DNA from: Bacteroidales bacterium
Lineage (GTDB): Bacteria; Bacteroidota; Bacteroidia; Bacteroidales; JAAYUG01
Assembly: GCA_012517825.1 (NCBI GenBank)
Contig: JAAYUG010000029.1
Coordinates: forward strand, 1-41,818
Length of the DNA stretch: 41,818 nt
Direction: 5' to 3'
Positions within the stretch are counted from its first letter, which is position 1. Each line of letters begins with the position of its first letter. The notes beneath the pieces are model-generated. The model was given only the letters and a program-made list of their open reading frames with translations, did no database searches and was not told the DNA's origin. This document shows positions 3,705-23,941 of this stretch, piece after piece. Position numbers and translations under genes: made by a program.

Positions 3705-4964
3705 ATGAATGGCATGGACAAAAAGATTGAAAAAAGACATCCCCGACTGAAACGCATTATCTGGATTTCAGCCATTGCTGTTCTTGTACTCCTGGTTATT
3801 TACTCGATGTTTTTTGGAGATAAAAGCTCCAGGCTGAACATCGAAACCGACAAGATTACCATAGCTACCGTTGAACGCGACATATTTCAGGATTATATAG
3901 CTGTTATCGGCACCGTTGAACCCATTCAGACCATTTACCTTGATGCCATTGAAGGAGGCAGGGTAGAAGAGATTCTCCGCGATGAAGGAAGCAAACTGCG
4001 CAAGGGAGATGTGATCATCCGGCTGAGCAACCACAATCTGCTGCTGGAAATTTCGAACCATGAAGCGGAAGTTGCGCGGGCAGTCAATGAACTTCGCCAG
4101 GCACGGCTGTTGATGGTGCAGCAGCAACTCATCAACCAGAGCAGCATTATTGATACGAGAAAAGTTCTCAAACAGCAGGAAAGAACATTCCGGAACAATG
4201 AAAAGCTGTTCGAAACCAATTCTATCTCGCGCGAAGAGCTCGAAAAATCAAAAGAAGAATACCAGGCTTCATTAGAAAAAATGAACCTTCTGCTCGAAAA
4301 CCAGAAACAGGACAGCATGTTCAGGGCCATCCAGGTGGCCTCTCTCGAATCATCGGTTTCGCGCATGGAGAAAAACCTTGTACTCATCCGTGCCCGGCTC
4401 GATAACCTCGACATCAAGGCGCCTGTTGACGGCGAACTGGCCACTCTCAATCCTGAAGTAGGGGAAGTGATCAATTACGGCACACGTATCGGAACAATCA
4501 ATATACTCGACTCCTACAAGCTGAAAGCCGAAATTGACGAGCACTATATTGACCGGGTGAAAAAAGGACTGAAAGGTGCCTGCGATTTCAGCGGGAAAGA
4601 CTATACAGCGCATATTGAAAAGATTTTCCCCGAAGTGAAAAACGGAAGGTTTTTTGTTGACATGATTTTTGATGATTCGGTACCTTCCCAGATCCGTATC
4701 GGTCAGACATCACGGATCAAGCTTGAACTGGGGGAATCCCAGCCGGCTGTACTTTTACCCAGGGGAGGTTTTTACCAGAGTACCGGTGGTCAGTGGGTAT
4801 ATGTCATTCTTCCCGAACAGCATGTAGCTGTAAAACGGGCTATCCGGATCGGACGCCAGAACCCGAGATTTTACGAAATCATCGAAGGCCTGGAGCCGGG
4901 AGAAAAAGTAATTGTTTCGGGATACGACAATTTTGGCAACGCAGATAAGCTGATTCTTAAATAG
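3705..4964 (+). CDS. Periplasmic adaptor (membrane fusion) protein, HlyD/MacA type
   Basis: This 419-residue protein should link an inner-membrane transporter to a TolC-type channel. One N-terminal membrane segment (about 17-37) follows a short basic tail. A lipoyl-like half (EGGRVEEILRDEGSKLRKGDVI) precedes a long charged coiled-coil hairpin (about 115-225). The second lipoyl half (NLDIKAPVDGELATLNPEVGE split around it) and a beta-barrel follow. The C-terminal membrane-proximal domain includes GLEPGEKVIVSG. The first ATG is used; Met4 is an alternative. It is first in the operon behind the sigma-54 promoter and 20 bp before the ABC ATPase gene. Adaptors of this type serve both RND and MacB-like ABC pumps; the ATPase next door favours the ABC type. 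Confidence 0.92.
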   Translation: MNGMDKKIEKRHPRLKRIIWISAIAVLVLLVIYSMFFGDKSSRLNIETDKITIATVERDIFQDYIAVIGTVEPIQTIYLDAIEGGRVEEILRDEGSKLRKGDVIIRLSNHNLLLEISNHEAEVARAVNELRQARLLMVQQQLINQSSIIDTRKVLKQQERTFRNNEKLFETNSISREELEKSKEEYQASLEKMNLLLENQKQDSMFRAIQVASLESSVSRMEKNLVLIRARLDNLDIKAPVDGELATLNPEVGEVINYGTRIGTINILDSYKLKAEIDEHYIDRVKKGLKGACDFSGKDYTAHIEKIFPEVKNGRFFVDMIFDDSVPSQIRIGQTSRIKLELGESQPAVLLPRGGFYQSTGGQWVYVILPEQHVAVKRAIRIGRQNPRFYEIIEGLEPGEKVIVSGYDNFGNADKLILK

Positions 4965-4984
4965 TACCTTTAATTCTGTTCATT

Positions 4985-5674
4985 ATGATTCGCACCATCC
5001 ATCTGAGCAAAGTTTTCCGCACCGATGAAGTGGAAACAACTGCCCTCAACAATGTCAATCTTGAAGTTAAGGAAGGAGAATTTGTCGCAGTAATGGGTCC
5101 TTCGGGCTGCGGAAAATCCACCCTGCTCAATATTCTGGGCCTTCTGGACAATCCGACCAGTGGAGAATTTTACCTCGACGGACATGAGGTTTCCCGTTAC
5201 AGTGAACGGGCCCGCACCAGTATGAGAAAAGGAAACATCGGATTTGTATTCCAGAGCTTCAACCTGATCGATGAACTAACAGTCTTTGAAAATATCGAAC
5301 TTCCCCTTTTGTATATGAAGGTTTCTGCCACTGAGCGCCGCAAAAGGGTGGAAGAAGCCATGGAAAGAATGCGGATATCACACCGCAGAAAACACTTCCC
5401 CCAGCAACTTTCCGGCGGTCAGCAGCAGCGTGTTGCCATTGCACGTGCTGTGGTTTCCAAACCAAGGCTCATCCTCGCCGACGAACCAACCGGAAACCTC
5501 GACTCAGCCAACGGGGAAGAGGTTATGAATCTTCTGATCGAACTCAATAACGACGGAACAACCATCGTGATGGTAACCCACTCCCCCTCCGATGCAGAAA
5601 AAGCCCACCGGATCATTCAGCTTTTTGACGGATATGTAGTTACGGAAAATGTAAAACATGCGTATCAGAGTTGA
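4985..5674 (+). CDS. ABC transporter ATP-binding protein, LolD/MacB type
   Basis: The 229 residues cover a complete nucleotide-binding domain and little else. Visible motifs are Walker A (GPSGCGKST), the Q loop (FVFQSFNLIDELTV), the signature LSGGQQQR, Walker B with catalytic Glu (LILADEPTGNLDS) and the switch His (VMVTHSPSDAEKAH). The phrase NLDSANGEEVM is typical of the LolD/MacB/FtsE group that powers extrusion or lipoprotein release rather than import. The protein needs a partner permease. None is encoded before the TolC-family gene, so the permease must lie elsewhere or have been lost. Confidence 0.94.
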   Translation: MIRTIHLSKVFRTDEVETTALNNVNLEVKEGEFVAVMGPSGCGKSTLLNILGLLDNPTSGEFYLDGHEVSRYSERARTSMRKGNIGFVFQSFNLIDELTVFENIELPLLYMKVSATERRKRVEEAMERMRISHRRKHFPQQLSGGQQQRVAIARAVVSKPRLILADEPTGNLDSANGEEVMNLLIELNNDGTTIVMVTHSPSDAEKAHRIIQLFDGYVVTENVKHAYQS

Positions 5675-19324: not shown

Positions 19325-19681
19325 ATGCTGGAACATTTAACAACAGAAACTTTTAAGGAAAAAGTATTCAACTACGACGTCAACAAAGAATGGAAATTTG
19401 AAGGGGATAAACCCTGTCTGATTGATTTTTATGCCGACTGGTGCGGACCGTGCCGTATGGTAGCGCCCATACTCGAGGAACTGGCGAAGGAATACGACGG
19501 AAAACTGAACATATACAAAGTTGATACCGACAAGGAGCAGGAACTGGCCATGGTATTCGGTATTCAGAGCATTCCGTCCCTTCTTTTCGTTCCTAAGGAT
19601 GGTCAGCCGCAGATGGCTATGGGTGCCCTTCCCAAGGAAACCTTTAAAAAGGCTATCAAAGACGTTCTGAAGGTTGAATAA
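19325..19681 (+). CDS. trxA: Thioredoxin
   Basis: The 118-residue cytoplasmic protein is a complete thioredoxin fold without signal peptide. The redox pair is Cys40/Cys43 in the canonical ADWCGPCRM motif. The cis-proline is Pro84 in QSIPSLLF, and the usual FYADW strand precedes the active site. It would reduce disulfides in the cytosol using thioredoxin reductase, which is not encoded here. It has its own promoter and a strong terminator, so it is monocistronic. An N-terminal extension of about 10 residues over E. coli thioredoxin is common in Bacteroidetes. Confidence 0.96.
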   Translation: MLEHLTTETFKEKVFNYDVNKEWKFEGDKPCLIDFYADWCGPCRMVAPILEELAKEYDGKLNIYKVDTDKEQELAMVFGIQSIPSLLFVPKDGQPQMAMGALPKETFKKAIKDVLKVE

Positions 19682-19706
19682 TTTCTTGCTGATTATTAAC
19701 GCATTG

Positions 19707-19735
19707 CGGGCAGAATGGTTTTTCTGCCCGTTTTT
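19707..19735 (+). terminator. Rho-independent terminator of thioredoxin
   Basis: A 9-bp stem CGGGCAGAA / TTCTGCCCG (19707-19715 with 19722-19730) with a 6-nt loop is followed by TTTTTG. It lies 25 bp after the stop codon. Confidence 0.92.
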
Positions 19736-19738
19736 GTT

Positions 19739-19746
19739 TATATTTG
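19739..19746 (+). promoter_or_regulatory. -7 element (TATATTTG) before the TPP riboswitch
   Basis: The octamer matches TAnnTTTG. The predicted start near 19752 coincides with the first base of the riboswitch, which supports it, although no good -33 element is seen. It follows the thioredoxin terminator directly. Confidence 0.5.
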
Positions 19747-19753
19747 CCATGTT

Positions 19754-19836
19754 CTCTAAGGGGGTGCCTTAATAGTACGGGCTGAGATCATACCCTTAGT
19801 ACCTGATCCGGGTAATGCCGGCGTAGGGATTTGGAG
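19754..19836 (+). promoter_or_regulatory. TPP (thiamine pyrophosphate) riboswitch, THI element
   Basis: The highly conserved aptamer core is present in order: GGGGTGCC, GGGCTGAGATCATACCC, ACCTGATCCGGGTAATGCC and GGCGTAGGGA. P1 can form between CTCTAA (19754-19759) and TTGGAG (19831-19836). TPP binding would repress the downstream TonB-dependent receptor gene. A 7-bp hairpin GGCAATG / CATTGCC (19836-19842 with 19850-19856) starts on the last base of P1 and may be the expression platform. No T-run follows that hairpin, so control is more likely translational or by another route. Confidence 0.96.
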
Positions 19837-19885
19837 GCAATGAAGAACACATTGCCCCGCAGTATTAACCAAAAATTTGTGCATC

Positions 19886-22282
19886 ATGAAAAAAGCATGG
19901 TTATTTGGCTTTTTCCATGCCATGGTTATTTCGGCGTGGGGACAATTCGCTCTGCATGGAACCGTCAAAAGCACTGACGGAGATCCTCTGGCGGGGGCAA
20001 GCATCGTTGTTGAACAGACGTTTCACGGAACCTCAGCAGGTCCTGATGGTTCTTTTACAATTCAAAAACTGAAGCCCGGAACGGTTTCCCTCCGGGTGTC
20101 CTTTCTTGGCTACGCAACAGCTATCAGGGAAGTAACGGTTCCGTATGAAGGAGAACTGTCCTTCGTACTGGAACCTTCGCCGGTTCTGGCCGATGAGGTG
20201 GTAGTAAAGGCAACACGGATGGCAGGAAAAACTCCTTCGGCAGTAACCCTCATCAGCAGGGAAGAAATTCAGCAAAACAATATCGGCCAGGATATGCCCT
20301 TCCTGCTTTCGCTCACTCCTTCGCTGGTTCCGACATCTGATGCCGGAAACGGAATAGGATACACCAATTTCCGAATCCGGGGTTCCGATGCATACCGGAT
20401 GAACGTGACGGTGAATGGCATTCCCCTCAATGATGCCGAGTCACAGGGTGTATGGTGGATCGATCTTCCCGACATTGCCGCCTCGACCGAAAACATTTAT
20501 ATTCAGCGGGGTGTAGGGCCTTCTACCAACGGAGCAGGAGCATTTGGTGCGACCATCAGCCTTCAGACAAATACCCTGCGGCCCGATGCTTATGCTACCG
20601 TCGATCTGGGAAGAGGTTCCTACAATACACGCCGCACCTCATTGTCACTTGGCAGTGGCCTTATCAACAGACATTTTACCTTCGATGCCCGCCTTTCCAG
20701 AATTCATTCAGACGGCTACATCGACCGGGCTTTCAGCAACCTCGACTCCTGGTTTGTATCCGGGGCATGGTATGGCCAGGGCCAGATTATCAGACTGAAT
20801 GTTTTTTCGGGGAACGAACGCACTTATCAGGCATGGTATGGAGTGGAAAAATCCATCCTCGATACCAACCGCCGGTATAATCCCTATACCTACGACAACG
20901 AAACCGACAATTACCGGCAAACACATTACCAGCTTATCTGGTCAAGGGAATTTTCACGGCATTTTTATCTGAATGCCGCCCTGCATTACACTGCCGGGAA
21001 AGGTTACTACGAACAGTACAAAAAAGACCGTTACCTTCCCGATTACGGGATGACCCCAATCGTGACGTCTGATACGGTTTTCGATATTTCCGACCTCATC
21101 CAGCAAAAATGGATGGATAACGATTTCTATGGAGCGGTTCTCTCGTTTCATTATCGCACAGGCAAAATAGAAGCCATTGCCGGCGGAGGAATAAACAATT
21201 ATCTGGGCAACCACTTCGGAAAGGTTATCTGGGCGCAGTATGCCGGTGAAAACCCCATCCGCCACGAATGGTACCGGAACAAAGGAGACAAACTCGATTA
21301 CAATACCTATGTAAAAGTAAATTACCAGATCAATTCCTCCCTGTCGTTGTTTGCCGATCTTCAGTTCAGAGGCATTGCCTATCGTCTGAAAGGAATCGAC
21401 GACTACCGGGACAACAATGGCCAGCCTGTCGATATTCAACAAACCCATGACTACCGGTTTATCAATCCGAAGGCCGGAATCTTCTGGACAATTTCACCGG
21501 GTCAGGATTTCTATTTTACCTTTTCCACCGGCCAAAGGGAACCCACACGGCAAAATTACCTCGATGCCACCCCATCCTCCGTCAAACCCAGACCGGAACT
21601 CCTGTTCGACTACGAAACCGGGGCCAACATCAGCGGTGCCAGATGGAAGGCAAATATCAACCTCTTTTACATGGACTACCGTAACCAACTGGTCTATACC
21701 GGAAAACTTAATGATGTGGCGTATCCCATCATGACCAATGTTCCCAGCAGTTATCGCACCGGAGTTGAGATGGCAGTTACAGCACGGCCGGCGGGCTGGG
21801 TTACCTGGCAGGGAAATCTGGCACTAAGCAGGAACAAAATCAGAAACTTTACCGAATACGCCGATTACTATGATGCCGATTACAACTACCTGGGCAACAA
21901 ACCCAAAGACCTTGGCGAAACCGACATTTCCTATTCTCCTTCCATAACAGGAGCTTCGAACCTGGAATTTCAGTTTCTGAAAAACGCTTCCGTCACTTTG
22001 ACAAACCGGTATGTTGGTTCGCAGTATTTCGACAATACTTCCAGCAGGGAACGGATGATTGACGCGTATTTTGTCAGCGACCTGCGGCTTGCGTACAACC
22101 TGCATCCGCGTTCCCTGAAAAATATAGCTCTTCAGTTTCAGATTGTCAATCTCTTTAATGAACTTTACGAAAGCAACGCCTACGGAGGCAACTGGTATGT
22201 TGATGGCCGTGAGCAGACATGGGCCTATTATTTCCCTCAGGCAGAGCGGCATTTTCTGGCAGGTGTCCGGTTTGAATTTTAA
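19886..22282 (+). CDS. TonB-dependent outer-membrane receptor, predicted thiamine uptake
   Basis: The 798-residue receptor has a signal peptide (MKKAWLFGFFHAMVISAWGQ) and a carboxypeptidase-regulatory-like domain (about 21-95, GTVKSTDGDPLAGASIVV). A TonB plug follows (about 110-225, FRIRGSDAYRMNVTVNGIPLND), then a long beta-barrel ending in the aromatic terminus VRFEF. The ATG at 19886 is chosen; upstream TTG readings fall in the leader. Such receptors import scarce substrates using TonB and the proton motive force. The TPP riboswitch directly upstream points to thiamine, a phosphate ester or a precursor. No inner-membrane thiamine transporter or thi biosynthesis gene is adjacent, so partners must lie elsewhere. 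The substrate is inference from regulation. Confidence 0.92.
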   Translation: MKKAWLFGFFHAMVISAWGQFALHGTVKSTDGDPLAGASIVVEQTFHGTSAGPDGSFTIQKLKPGTVSLRVSFLGYATAIREVTVPYEGELSFVLEPSPVLADEVVVKATRMAGKTPSAVTLISREEIQQNNIGQDMPFLLSLTPSLVPTSDAGNGIGYTNFRIRGSDAYRMNVTVNGIPLNDAESQGVWWIDLPDIAASTENIYIQRGVGPSTNGAGAFGATISLQTNTLRPDAYATVDLGRGSYNTRRTSLSLGSGLINRHFTFDARLSRIHSDGYIDRAFSNLDSWFVSGAWYGQGQIIRLNVFSGNERTYQAWYGVEKSILDTNRRYNPYTYDNETDNYRQTHYQLIWSREFSRHFYLNAALHYTAGKGYYEQYKKDRYLPDYGMTPIVTSDTVFDISDLIQQKWMDNDFYGAVLSFHYRTGKIEAIAGGGINNYLGNHFGKVIWAQYAGENPIRHEWYRNKGDKLDYNTYVKVNYQINSSLSLFADLQFRGIAYRLKGIDDYRDNNGQPVDIQQTHDYRFINPKAGIFWTISPGQDFYFTFSTGQREPTRQNYLDATPSSVKPRPELLFDYETGANISGARWKANINLFYMDYRNQLVYTGKLNDVAYPIMTNVPSSYRTGVEMAVTARPAGWVTWQGNLALSRNKIRNFTEYADYYDADYNYLGNKPKDLGETDISYSPSITGASNLEFQFLKNASVTLTNRYVGSQYFDNTSSRERMIDAYFVSDLRLAYNLHPRSLKNIALQFQIVNLFNELYESNAYGGNWYVDGREQTWAYYFPQAERHFLAGVRFEF

Positions 22283-22397
22283 ATGATACCACGTAAGATG
22301 CATGCGGTTCAGGTTTCATCCTGCCGCATGCATTGCTATTGTCCCACATTGCGCATCAGTTCGCTTGCTCTCCTGATGTGCAATCAGGGATTATCAT

Positions 22398-22405
22398 TAC
22401 CTTTG
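22398..22405 (+). promoter_or_regulatory. -7 element (TACCTTTG) for nnr
   Basis: This exact TAnnTTTG match lies 18 bp before the nnr ATG (22424), implying a very short leader. The -33 region is poor. Confidence 0.45.
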
Positions 22406-22423
22406 TTTCAAAGCTACGGAGAA

Positions 22424-23941
22424 ATGAAAGTTTTTACAGTACAACAAATACGGGAACTGGATGCTTTTACCATTGCCCATGAATCGATTGCATCCGTTGA
22501 GCTCATGGAAAGAGCAGCAGCAGGCTGTACCCTCTGGCTCACCAGCCATTTCCCCCCGGAAACTTCTTTTCTTATTTTCTCCGGTGCAGGAAACAACGGT
22601 GGAGACGGTCTGGCAATAGCCCGTCAGTTGTTCTACAGAGGTTGCAGGGTTACGGTTTGCATTCCGGAAATGGGTCTGAGGCATTCTGATGATTTTGAAG
22701 CGAATTTTGAGAGGCTGAAAAAAATTCCCCGCATTGAGATTCTTCAACCTTCCCGTGCAGAGGATCTTCCAGTTCCCGGCAACGGCACGGTAGTTATTGA
22801 TGCCCTGTTTGGTTCTGGGCTATCCCGTCCCCTCTCCGGTTTCGCTGCACTGGTGGTAGACCATATCAACCGTCACAGCACCTGCACCGTTGCTATTGAT
22901 ATTCCTTCGGGCCTTTTTGGGGAAGACAATGGGAACAACCCCGGAGAAGCAATTATAAGAGCCTGTCATACCCTGAGTTTCCAGTTTCCGAAGCTGGCAT
23001 TCTTTTTTGCCGAGAACTATGAATTCACGGGAAAATGGCACATCATTCCCATAGGCCTTCATGAGGACGCCATCCGGAATACGGATACCCCCTATTTCTT
23101 TCTAGCCCAAGCAGATGTTAGGGCATGGGTCAGGCCGCGGGGTACTTTTTCGCACAAAGGCACTTATGGTCATGCCCTGATAATTGCCGGAAGCCATGGA
23201 ATGATGGGAGCGGCTGTGCTGGCGGCACGGTCGGCGGCACGGGCCGGAGCGGGGCTGGTTACCTCCCACCTGCCCGCATCATCTGAAATGATCATGCAGG
23301 TTTCAGCCCCCGAAGTTATTATCAGCATTGACCCGTCGAAAGAAGTGTTTTCCCGCGTGCCCGAAATTGGCAAATATACTGCAGTAGCTATAGGCCCGGG
23401 CCTGGGCACCCGCAAAGAAACAAAAGAAGCCTTCGTTTCCCTGCTCTCTGCATGGCGCAGGCCGATGGTACTTGATGCAGATGCACTGAATATGCTGGCA
23501 GCCGACGCTTCCCTCCTGGAGCTTGTACCCGAAAACAGCATTCTGACGCCCCACCCCAAGGAATTTGTCAGGTTGTTCGGCCTGTGGGAAAATCCATGGG
23601 AACGTCTGCAAAAAGCCCGGGAAATTGCTTCCCGGTACCGTATTATTCTGGTAATGAAAGGCGCCTATACTGCCATTGTCTGTCCCGACCAAACCGTCTG
23701 GTTCAACAGTACCGGAAATCCGGGCATGGCCACCGGAGGAAGCGGAGACGTACTTACCGGTATCATTGCCGGGCTCCTGGCACAAGAATATCCGCCACCG
23801 GATGCAGCCCGGCTGGGTGTATTCGTTCACGGACTTGCCGGAGACCTTGCCGCCCGCAAAACAGGACAGCATGCCTTACTTGCCGGAGACATTGTGAACC
23901 ACCTGGGAGAAGCATTTCTCCTGCTGGAAAAAGAAAAGTAG
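22424..23941 (+). CDS. nnr: Bifunctional NAD(P)H-hydrate epimerase / ADP-dependent dehydratase
   Basis: The 505-residue enzyme repairs NADHX and NADPHX, the hydrated forms of the cofactors. The start at MKVFTVQQIRELD is the usual one for the family; the reading frame extends 47 codons further upstream through promoter sequence. The N-terminal YjeF-type epimerase domain (about 1-215) has the Rossmann motif GAGNNGGDGLAIARQL and a conserved Asp in VIDALFGSGLSRPL. The C-terminal ribokinase-like dehydratase (about 225-500) has HKGTYGHALIIAGS, AIGPGLGT, DADALN, LTPHPKEF and the nucleotide-site GNPGMATGGSGDVLTGI. Length matches E. coli Nnr closely. It stands alone with its own promoter. Confidence 0.95.
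   Translation: MKVFTVQQIRELDAFTIAHESIASVELMERAAAGCTLWLTSHFPPETSFLIFSGAGNNGGDGLAIARQLFYRGCRVTVCIPEMGLRHSDDFEANFERLKKIPRIEILQPSRAEDLPVPGNGTVVIDALFGSGLSRPLSGFAALVVDHINRHSTCTVAIDIPSGLFGEDNGNNPGEAIIRACHTLSFQFPKLAFFFAENYEFTGKWHIIPIGLHEDAIRNTDTPYFFLAQADVRAWVRPRGTFSHKGTYGHALIIAGSHGMMGAAVLAARSAARAGAGLVTSHLPASSEMIMQVSAPEVIISIDPSKEVFSRVPEIGKYTAVAIGPGLGTRKETKEAFVSLLSAWRRPMVLDADALNMLAADASLLELVPENSILTPHPKEFVRLFGLWENPWERLQKAREIASRYRIILVMKGAYTAIVCPDQTVWFNSTGNPGMATGGSGDVLTGIIAGLLAQEYPPPDAARLGVFVHGLAGDLAARKTGQHALLAGDIVNHLGEAFLLLEKEK

Follow-up and report, generated by a model that had tools for sequence, protein, structure and literature searches.

A TPP riboswitch aptamer and the TonB-dependent receptor gene behind it are predicted to provide the outer-membrane step of thiamine uptake, a model to which we give a probability of roughly 85%. 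The pair lies within a window of 41,818 nucleotides, the whole stretch of DNA that was analysed (contig JAAYUG010000029.1 of a Bacteroidales bacterium). In the model, TPP made by the cell would fold the aptamer and, as the riboswitch class suggests, turn the receptor gene off. When TPP is low the receptor would be made and, by orthology to OMthi, would bring thiamine, or a phosphate ester of it, through the outer membrane. A PnuT-like permease encoded on contig C106, where it has no TPP aptamer, is predicted from its clade to carry the cargo across the inner membrane, and the kinase encoded beside it, together with ThiL, would convert the cargo to TPP. The features are listed in Table 1.

Table 1. 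Coordinates of the predicted features (window positions unless a locus is named).
Feature	Position	Strand	Basis
Hairpin resembling an intrinsic terminator, T-rich tail; end of the upstream thioredoxin gene	19706..19731	+	pattern scan
TATATTTG, candidate -7 box	19739..19746	+	fit to TAnnTTTG; position only
TPP riboswitch aptamer (RF00059), P3 arm short	19750..19846	+	cmscan, 71.3 bits, E 3.1e-12
Hairpin GGAGGCAATG..CATTGCCCC, candidate expression platform (predicted)	19833..19858	+	sequence, folding
TonB-dependent receptor, OMthi (thiamine) type	19886..22282	+	Pfam domains, relatives, tree; start predicted
PnuT-like permease and stand-alone NadR-type kinase	L078:4463-5601, contig C106 (permease 4987-5601, kinase 4463-5017)	-	PF04973; PF13521

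The aptamer is a member of RF00059 by its sequence, and binding of TPP would be expected of this class. The match exceeded the gathering score of 54.3 bits and spanned model positions 1-105, the full length, with 10 model columns deleted in the short P3 arm. This bore out the preliminary description, which had named a complete thiamine riboswitch and had placed the unit at 19754-22282; the P1 helix begins at 19754, and the end at 22282 is exact. It was the sole Rfam match at gathering score within the window, and the Rfam TPP search over the organism's own genome that the same description had called for (G000; 3,295,715 bases in 207 contigs, 95.13% complete) returned this one match and no other.

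Upstream, the riboswitch is preceded by a thioredoxin gene (19325-19681), behind which the terminator pattern scan found a single hairpin, against a mean of 0.5 in shuffled sequence. The octamer TATATTTG fits TAnnTTTG, which we take to be the -7 box consensus of Bacteroidota. Such octamers were no commoner in the window than by chance (28 observed against 30.2 expected), which leaves position as the sole argument for TATATTTG as a -7 box. A box at this site would put the transcript start at about the 5′ end of the aptamer, which is consistent with such a role.

The receptor gene was listed mechanically as an open reading frame from a TTG codon (19877-22282). The ATG at 19886, 40 nt past the aptamer match, is the likelier start, and translation from it would give an N-terminus that, judged by eye, resembles a signal peptide. 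The product matched CarbopepD_reg_2 (2e-17), Plug (3.4e-11) and TonB_dep_Rec_b-barrel (8.3e-20), with plug (PF07715) and barrel (PF00593) both over cut-off, in agreement with its earlier designation as a TonB-dependent receptor. A sequence search of solved structures with the receptor returned only a match to a 93-residue N-terminal domain. Downstream lies a gene for NAD(P)H-hydrate epimerase/dehydratase (ORF 22283-23941). Neither this repair gene nor the thioredoxin gene is a thi gene or encodes a transporter, as the preliminary description had said in finding no thi gene or inner-membrane transporter adjacent to the unit.

Assignment of the receptor to the OMthi type is well supported by orthology and by the conserved riboswitch; import of thiamine would follow from that assignment. 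Relatives were gathered from a bacterial genome collection by receptor sequence only, yielding 34 loci. In all 34 a TPP match lay a short distance ahead of the receptor, which in one of them (L022) was split over two contigs. When 36 genomes (these 34, G000 and G002) were searched, 21 had TPP matches above the gathering score and 15 only below it (43-52 bits). The riboswitch-receptor pair was likewise present in 10 of 20 genomes from the same family or order (G002, G037, G039, G040, G041, G043, G046, G047, G050 and G051). Two more of the 20 had a receptor but not the pair, both receptors being fragments (G042, starting at a contig end, and G053, a partial frame of 275 residues).

In a tree of 58 receptors, built by a quick method with SH-aLRT support and without bootstrap, the 44 receptors preceded by a TPP match fell on one side of a branch with SH-aLRT 100, and 14 other TonB receptors on the other. 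The latter were the usable loci among 19 tried, drawn from genomes with TPP matches elsewhere or none; the tree omits the receptor fragments of G042, G047 and G053. Among the TPP-preceded receptors are those of L028, L032 and L033 (Hoylesella nanceiensis), loci in which TPP aptamer, receptor, PnuT and TPK follow in a row. The phylogeny proposed earlier as a check thus placed the window's receptor in one clade with receptors of TPP-receptor-PnuT-TPK operons, and clustering with another substrate group, which would have spoken against a thiamine receptor, did not occur. In two loci (L037 in G010 and L039 in G024) second TPP aptamers precede small proteins that by eye are ThiS-like, which would point to a biosynthesis operon besides the receptor.

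The riboswitch is a candidate to act through the short leader that separates P1 from the start codon, where a translation block and Rho-dependent termination would both be compatible with the arrangement. Hairpin 19833-19858 begins inside the 3′ strand of P1 and takes its GGAG, which makes the full hairpin and P1 mutually exclusive. No T-run follows this hairpin, and the pattern scan found no intrinsic terminator between the window's aptamer and the receptor. In one family member (L002, from G002) a similar hairpin after the aptamer is followed by T6 and resembles an intrinsic terminator. The fold of the whole leader was no better than that of shuffled sequences (z -0.47) and carries no claim. 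An ATG two bases past GGAGG opens a frame of ~45 codons (19840-19977, traced by hand) that overlaps the receptor start out of frame; this is probably a chance occurrence.

Leaders of the relatives contain a downstream element complementary to the 5′ strand of the aptamer (P1/GGGGTG), reaching p ≤0.05 against shuffles in 13 of 32 leaders. In an exchange test on 23 of 33 leaders (near-duplicates were removed, as were three leaders that were very short and L047, for which no start was found), aptamers paired with their own leaders at a mean of -12.0 kcal/mol vs -10.2 kcal/mol with exchanged leaders, and none of 20,000 permutations was as good. The complementary stretch usually lies 20-40 nt before the start codon (e.g. 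L116, L121, L048 and L063) and is a candidate for the anti-aptamer strand of Bacteroidota TPP riboswitches. The complementarity is weak in the window, in G002 and in G043. For the window's aptamer, 12 of 22 foreign leaders paired at least as well as its own, and an anti-aptamer element is for this reason not claimed in the window's leader.

The preliminary description had held that receptors of this kind usually stand beside pnuT-like genes and that the window's is separated. The separation stood; its unusualness did not. Among the 34 receptor loci, a permease followed the receptor in 7 (L008, L028, L030-L033 and L036), and lay nearby before the riboswitch in 4 (L016, L018, L024 and L025). In the other 23 no permease was seen near the unit; L017, among these, is truncated at the receptor. 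A split is also published for Bacteroides thetaiotaomicron: OMthi and pnuT are apart in this species, while most gut genomes have one operon (PMC5613172). The split layout is common, and the window's pair is a known design.

Like OMthi (BT2390) of B. thetaiotaomicron, the window's receptor has a TPP aptamer directly before it and is split from pnuT (PMC5613172), and in the tree the likeness extends to its grouping with receptors of TPP-receptor-pnuT-TPK operons. The gene order of L028, L032 and L033 (receptor, PnuT-like permease, TPK) is that of the published OMthi-pnuT-tnr3 design (PMC5613172). Unlike the window's genome, B. thetaiotaomicron also has a biosynthesis operon and a pnuT-tnr3 operon under TPP control (PMC5613172), whereas in G000 the receptor was the sole TPP-controlled gene found and ThiC, ThiE and TPK were not found. 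In a B. thetaiotaomicron biosynthesis mutant, the same study saw the thiamine EC50 rise from 2.8 to 15.8 nM when OMthi was deleted, and it found no significant RNA change with thiamine in the two transport operons (PMC5613172). In view of the latter result, an effect of the riboswitch on receptors is not established at the RNA level. The same paper calls it uncertain how TPP riboswitches function in Bacteroidetes (PMC5613172).

Three other readings of the unit and its partners were weighed, concerning the extent of the operon, the cargo and the inner-membrane step. The NAD(P)H-hydrate repair gene might belong to a longer operon under the riboswitch, as suggested by the mechanical list, in which the repair ORF starts right behind the receptor; the likely ATG of this gene, at 22424, is 141 nt beyond the receptor stop, and an inverted repeat (GCATGCGG..CCGCATGC, 22300-22331, without a T-run) and a TACCTTTG box at 22398, both weak signs, lie in between. 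We consider the longer operon improbable. As to the cargo, the receptor might take up not thiamine or its esters but a precursor, either HMP pyrimidine or thiazole, given that precursor transporters in other bacteria are also under TPP riboswitches and that the receptor's sequence does not reveal its specificity. The gene content of G000 points the other way. ThiC was not found in G000, and no ThiE (PF02581) scored over cut-off there (one weak partial match, 21 bits vs a cut-off of 27), so precursors could not be joined; furthermore, some receptors of the orthologous group are encoded next to PnuT and TPK. Precursor import is therefore very improbable. None of three scored candidates in G000 matched thiamine pyrophosphokinase (TPK, PF04263), and ThiL was present (311.5 bits). 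ThiC, ThiE and TPK were absent from G001 and G002 as well, genomes that are themselves only 76-78% complete. Single gene absences in G000 are weak because the genome is 95% complete and in 207 contigs; the organism probably makes no thiamine of its own. With no ThiC, ThiE or TPK above cut-off in G000, the evidence favours thiamine or a phosphate ester over a pyrimidine precursor as the cargo. Of the cargoes named in the preliminary description, thiamine and a phosphate ester remain, and the pyrimidine precursor is unlikely, as no ThiE over cut-off would join pyrimidine and thiazole.

For the inner-membrane step, G000 has one PF04973 permease gene, on C106, which comes after guaA-like and protease-like genes (by eye) and adjoins a gene for a 184-residue kinase of the NadR type (PF13521, AAA_28). 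The arrangement is like that of PnuT/PnuC (PF04973) systems with a NadR-type kinase, in that the neighbour is of the ribosylnicotinamide-kinase type of NadR; unlike NadR, the kinase stands alone, without an NMN adenylyltransferase domain. A fused NadR-like protein beside a permease was seen in G017 only. The two genes could be a nicotinamide riboside system (PnuC with a NadR-type kinase) unrelated to thiamine, with the inner-membrane step for thiamine elsewhere. NCBIfam labels the permease PnuC (TIGR01528 over cut-off), the best match of the kinase is NadR, though below the NadR cut-off, its solved relatives are NadR proteins, and no TPP match was found near the permease. Against this, in a tree of 54 permeases the G000 protein fell within a clade of 30 proteins (97/92) that also holds every one of the 10 permeases of TPP-receptor operons. 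The PnuC-like second copies present alongside in G004, G006, G007, G023, G026 and G039 form a separate clade (100/100). Permease-kinase pairs also occur close to the TPP-receptor unit: in L016 the pair is just upstream and ends ~130 nt before the TPP aptamer, and in L018, L024 and L025 it lies within ~2.1 kb, with a gene that by eye is aldose-epimerase-like between. The permeases linked to the TPP unit in these four loci lie outside the clade of the G000 permease; of the 31 kinase-paired permeases in all, 13 are outside it. We regard a nicotinamide riboside system as a substantial possibility, somewhat doubtful in view of the tree; the clade shared with permeases of TPP-receptor operons argues that the inner-membrane partner in G000 is PnuT-like despite its PnuC label.

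We propose, at what we judge to be even odds, that here and in much of Bacteroidota the missing thiamine kinase is a stand-alone kinase of the NadR type (AAA_28) beside PnuT. It would make TMP from imported thiamine for ThiL to convert to TPP, and the two together would replace the TPK of the classical OMthi-PnuT-Tnr3 operon and leave the receptor as the sole TPP-controlled step. A thiamine kinase that makes TMP would, with ThiL, complete the TPP pathway in G000. Across 55 genomes (34 plus 21, several of them near-copies, e.g. G003/G023 and G006/G027), 30 had the permease with a stand-alone kinase, 12 had TPK, 13 had neither and none had both (Fisher p 1.2e-5, n=55, kinship ignored). When independent pairs were drawn on the receptor tree, 0 changed the same way, 2-4 opposite and 2-4 showed no difference (median p 0.25, not significant), and the exclusion is for this reason suggestive only. 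G017 was considered as an exception and rejected, its permease neighbour being the fused NadR-like protein and not a stand-alone kinase. Nor does an orphan ThiL prove a thiamine kinase: the TPK-bearing genomes G037 and G051 have ThiL and lack ThiE as well. No proposal of a NadR-type thiamine kinase was found in the open-licence literature of PubMed Central.

By itself the riboswitch-receptor pair bears out a known thiamine-scavenging design, here in a lineage of Bacteroidota that looks uncultured, with a TPP regulon of one gene. If the kinase beside PnuT is a thiamine kinase, it matters more than the pair itself: it would fill a gap in vitamin B1 metabolism in many genomes now scored as without thiamine activation, and would correct a PnuC/NadR (nicotinamide riboside) naming that would mislead predictions of vitamin need.
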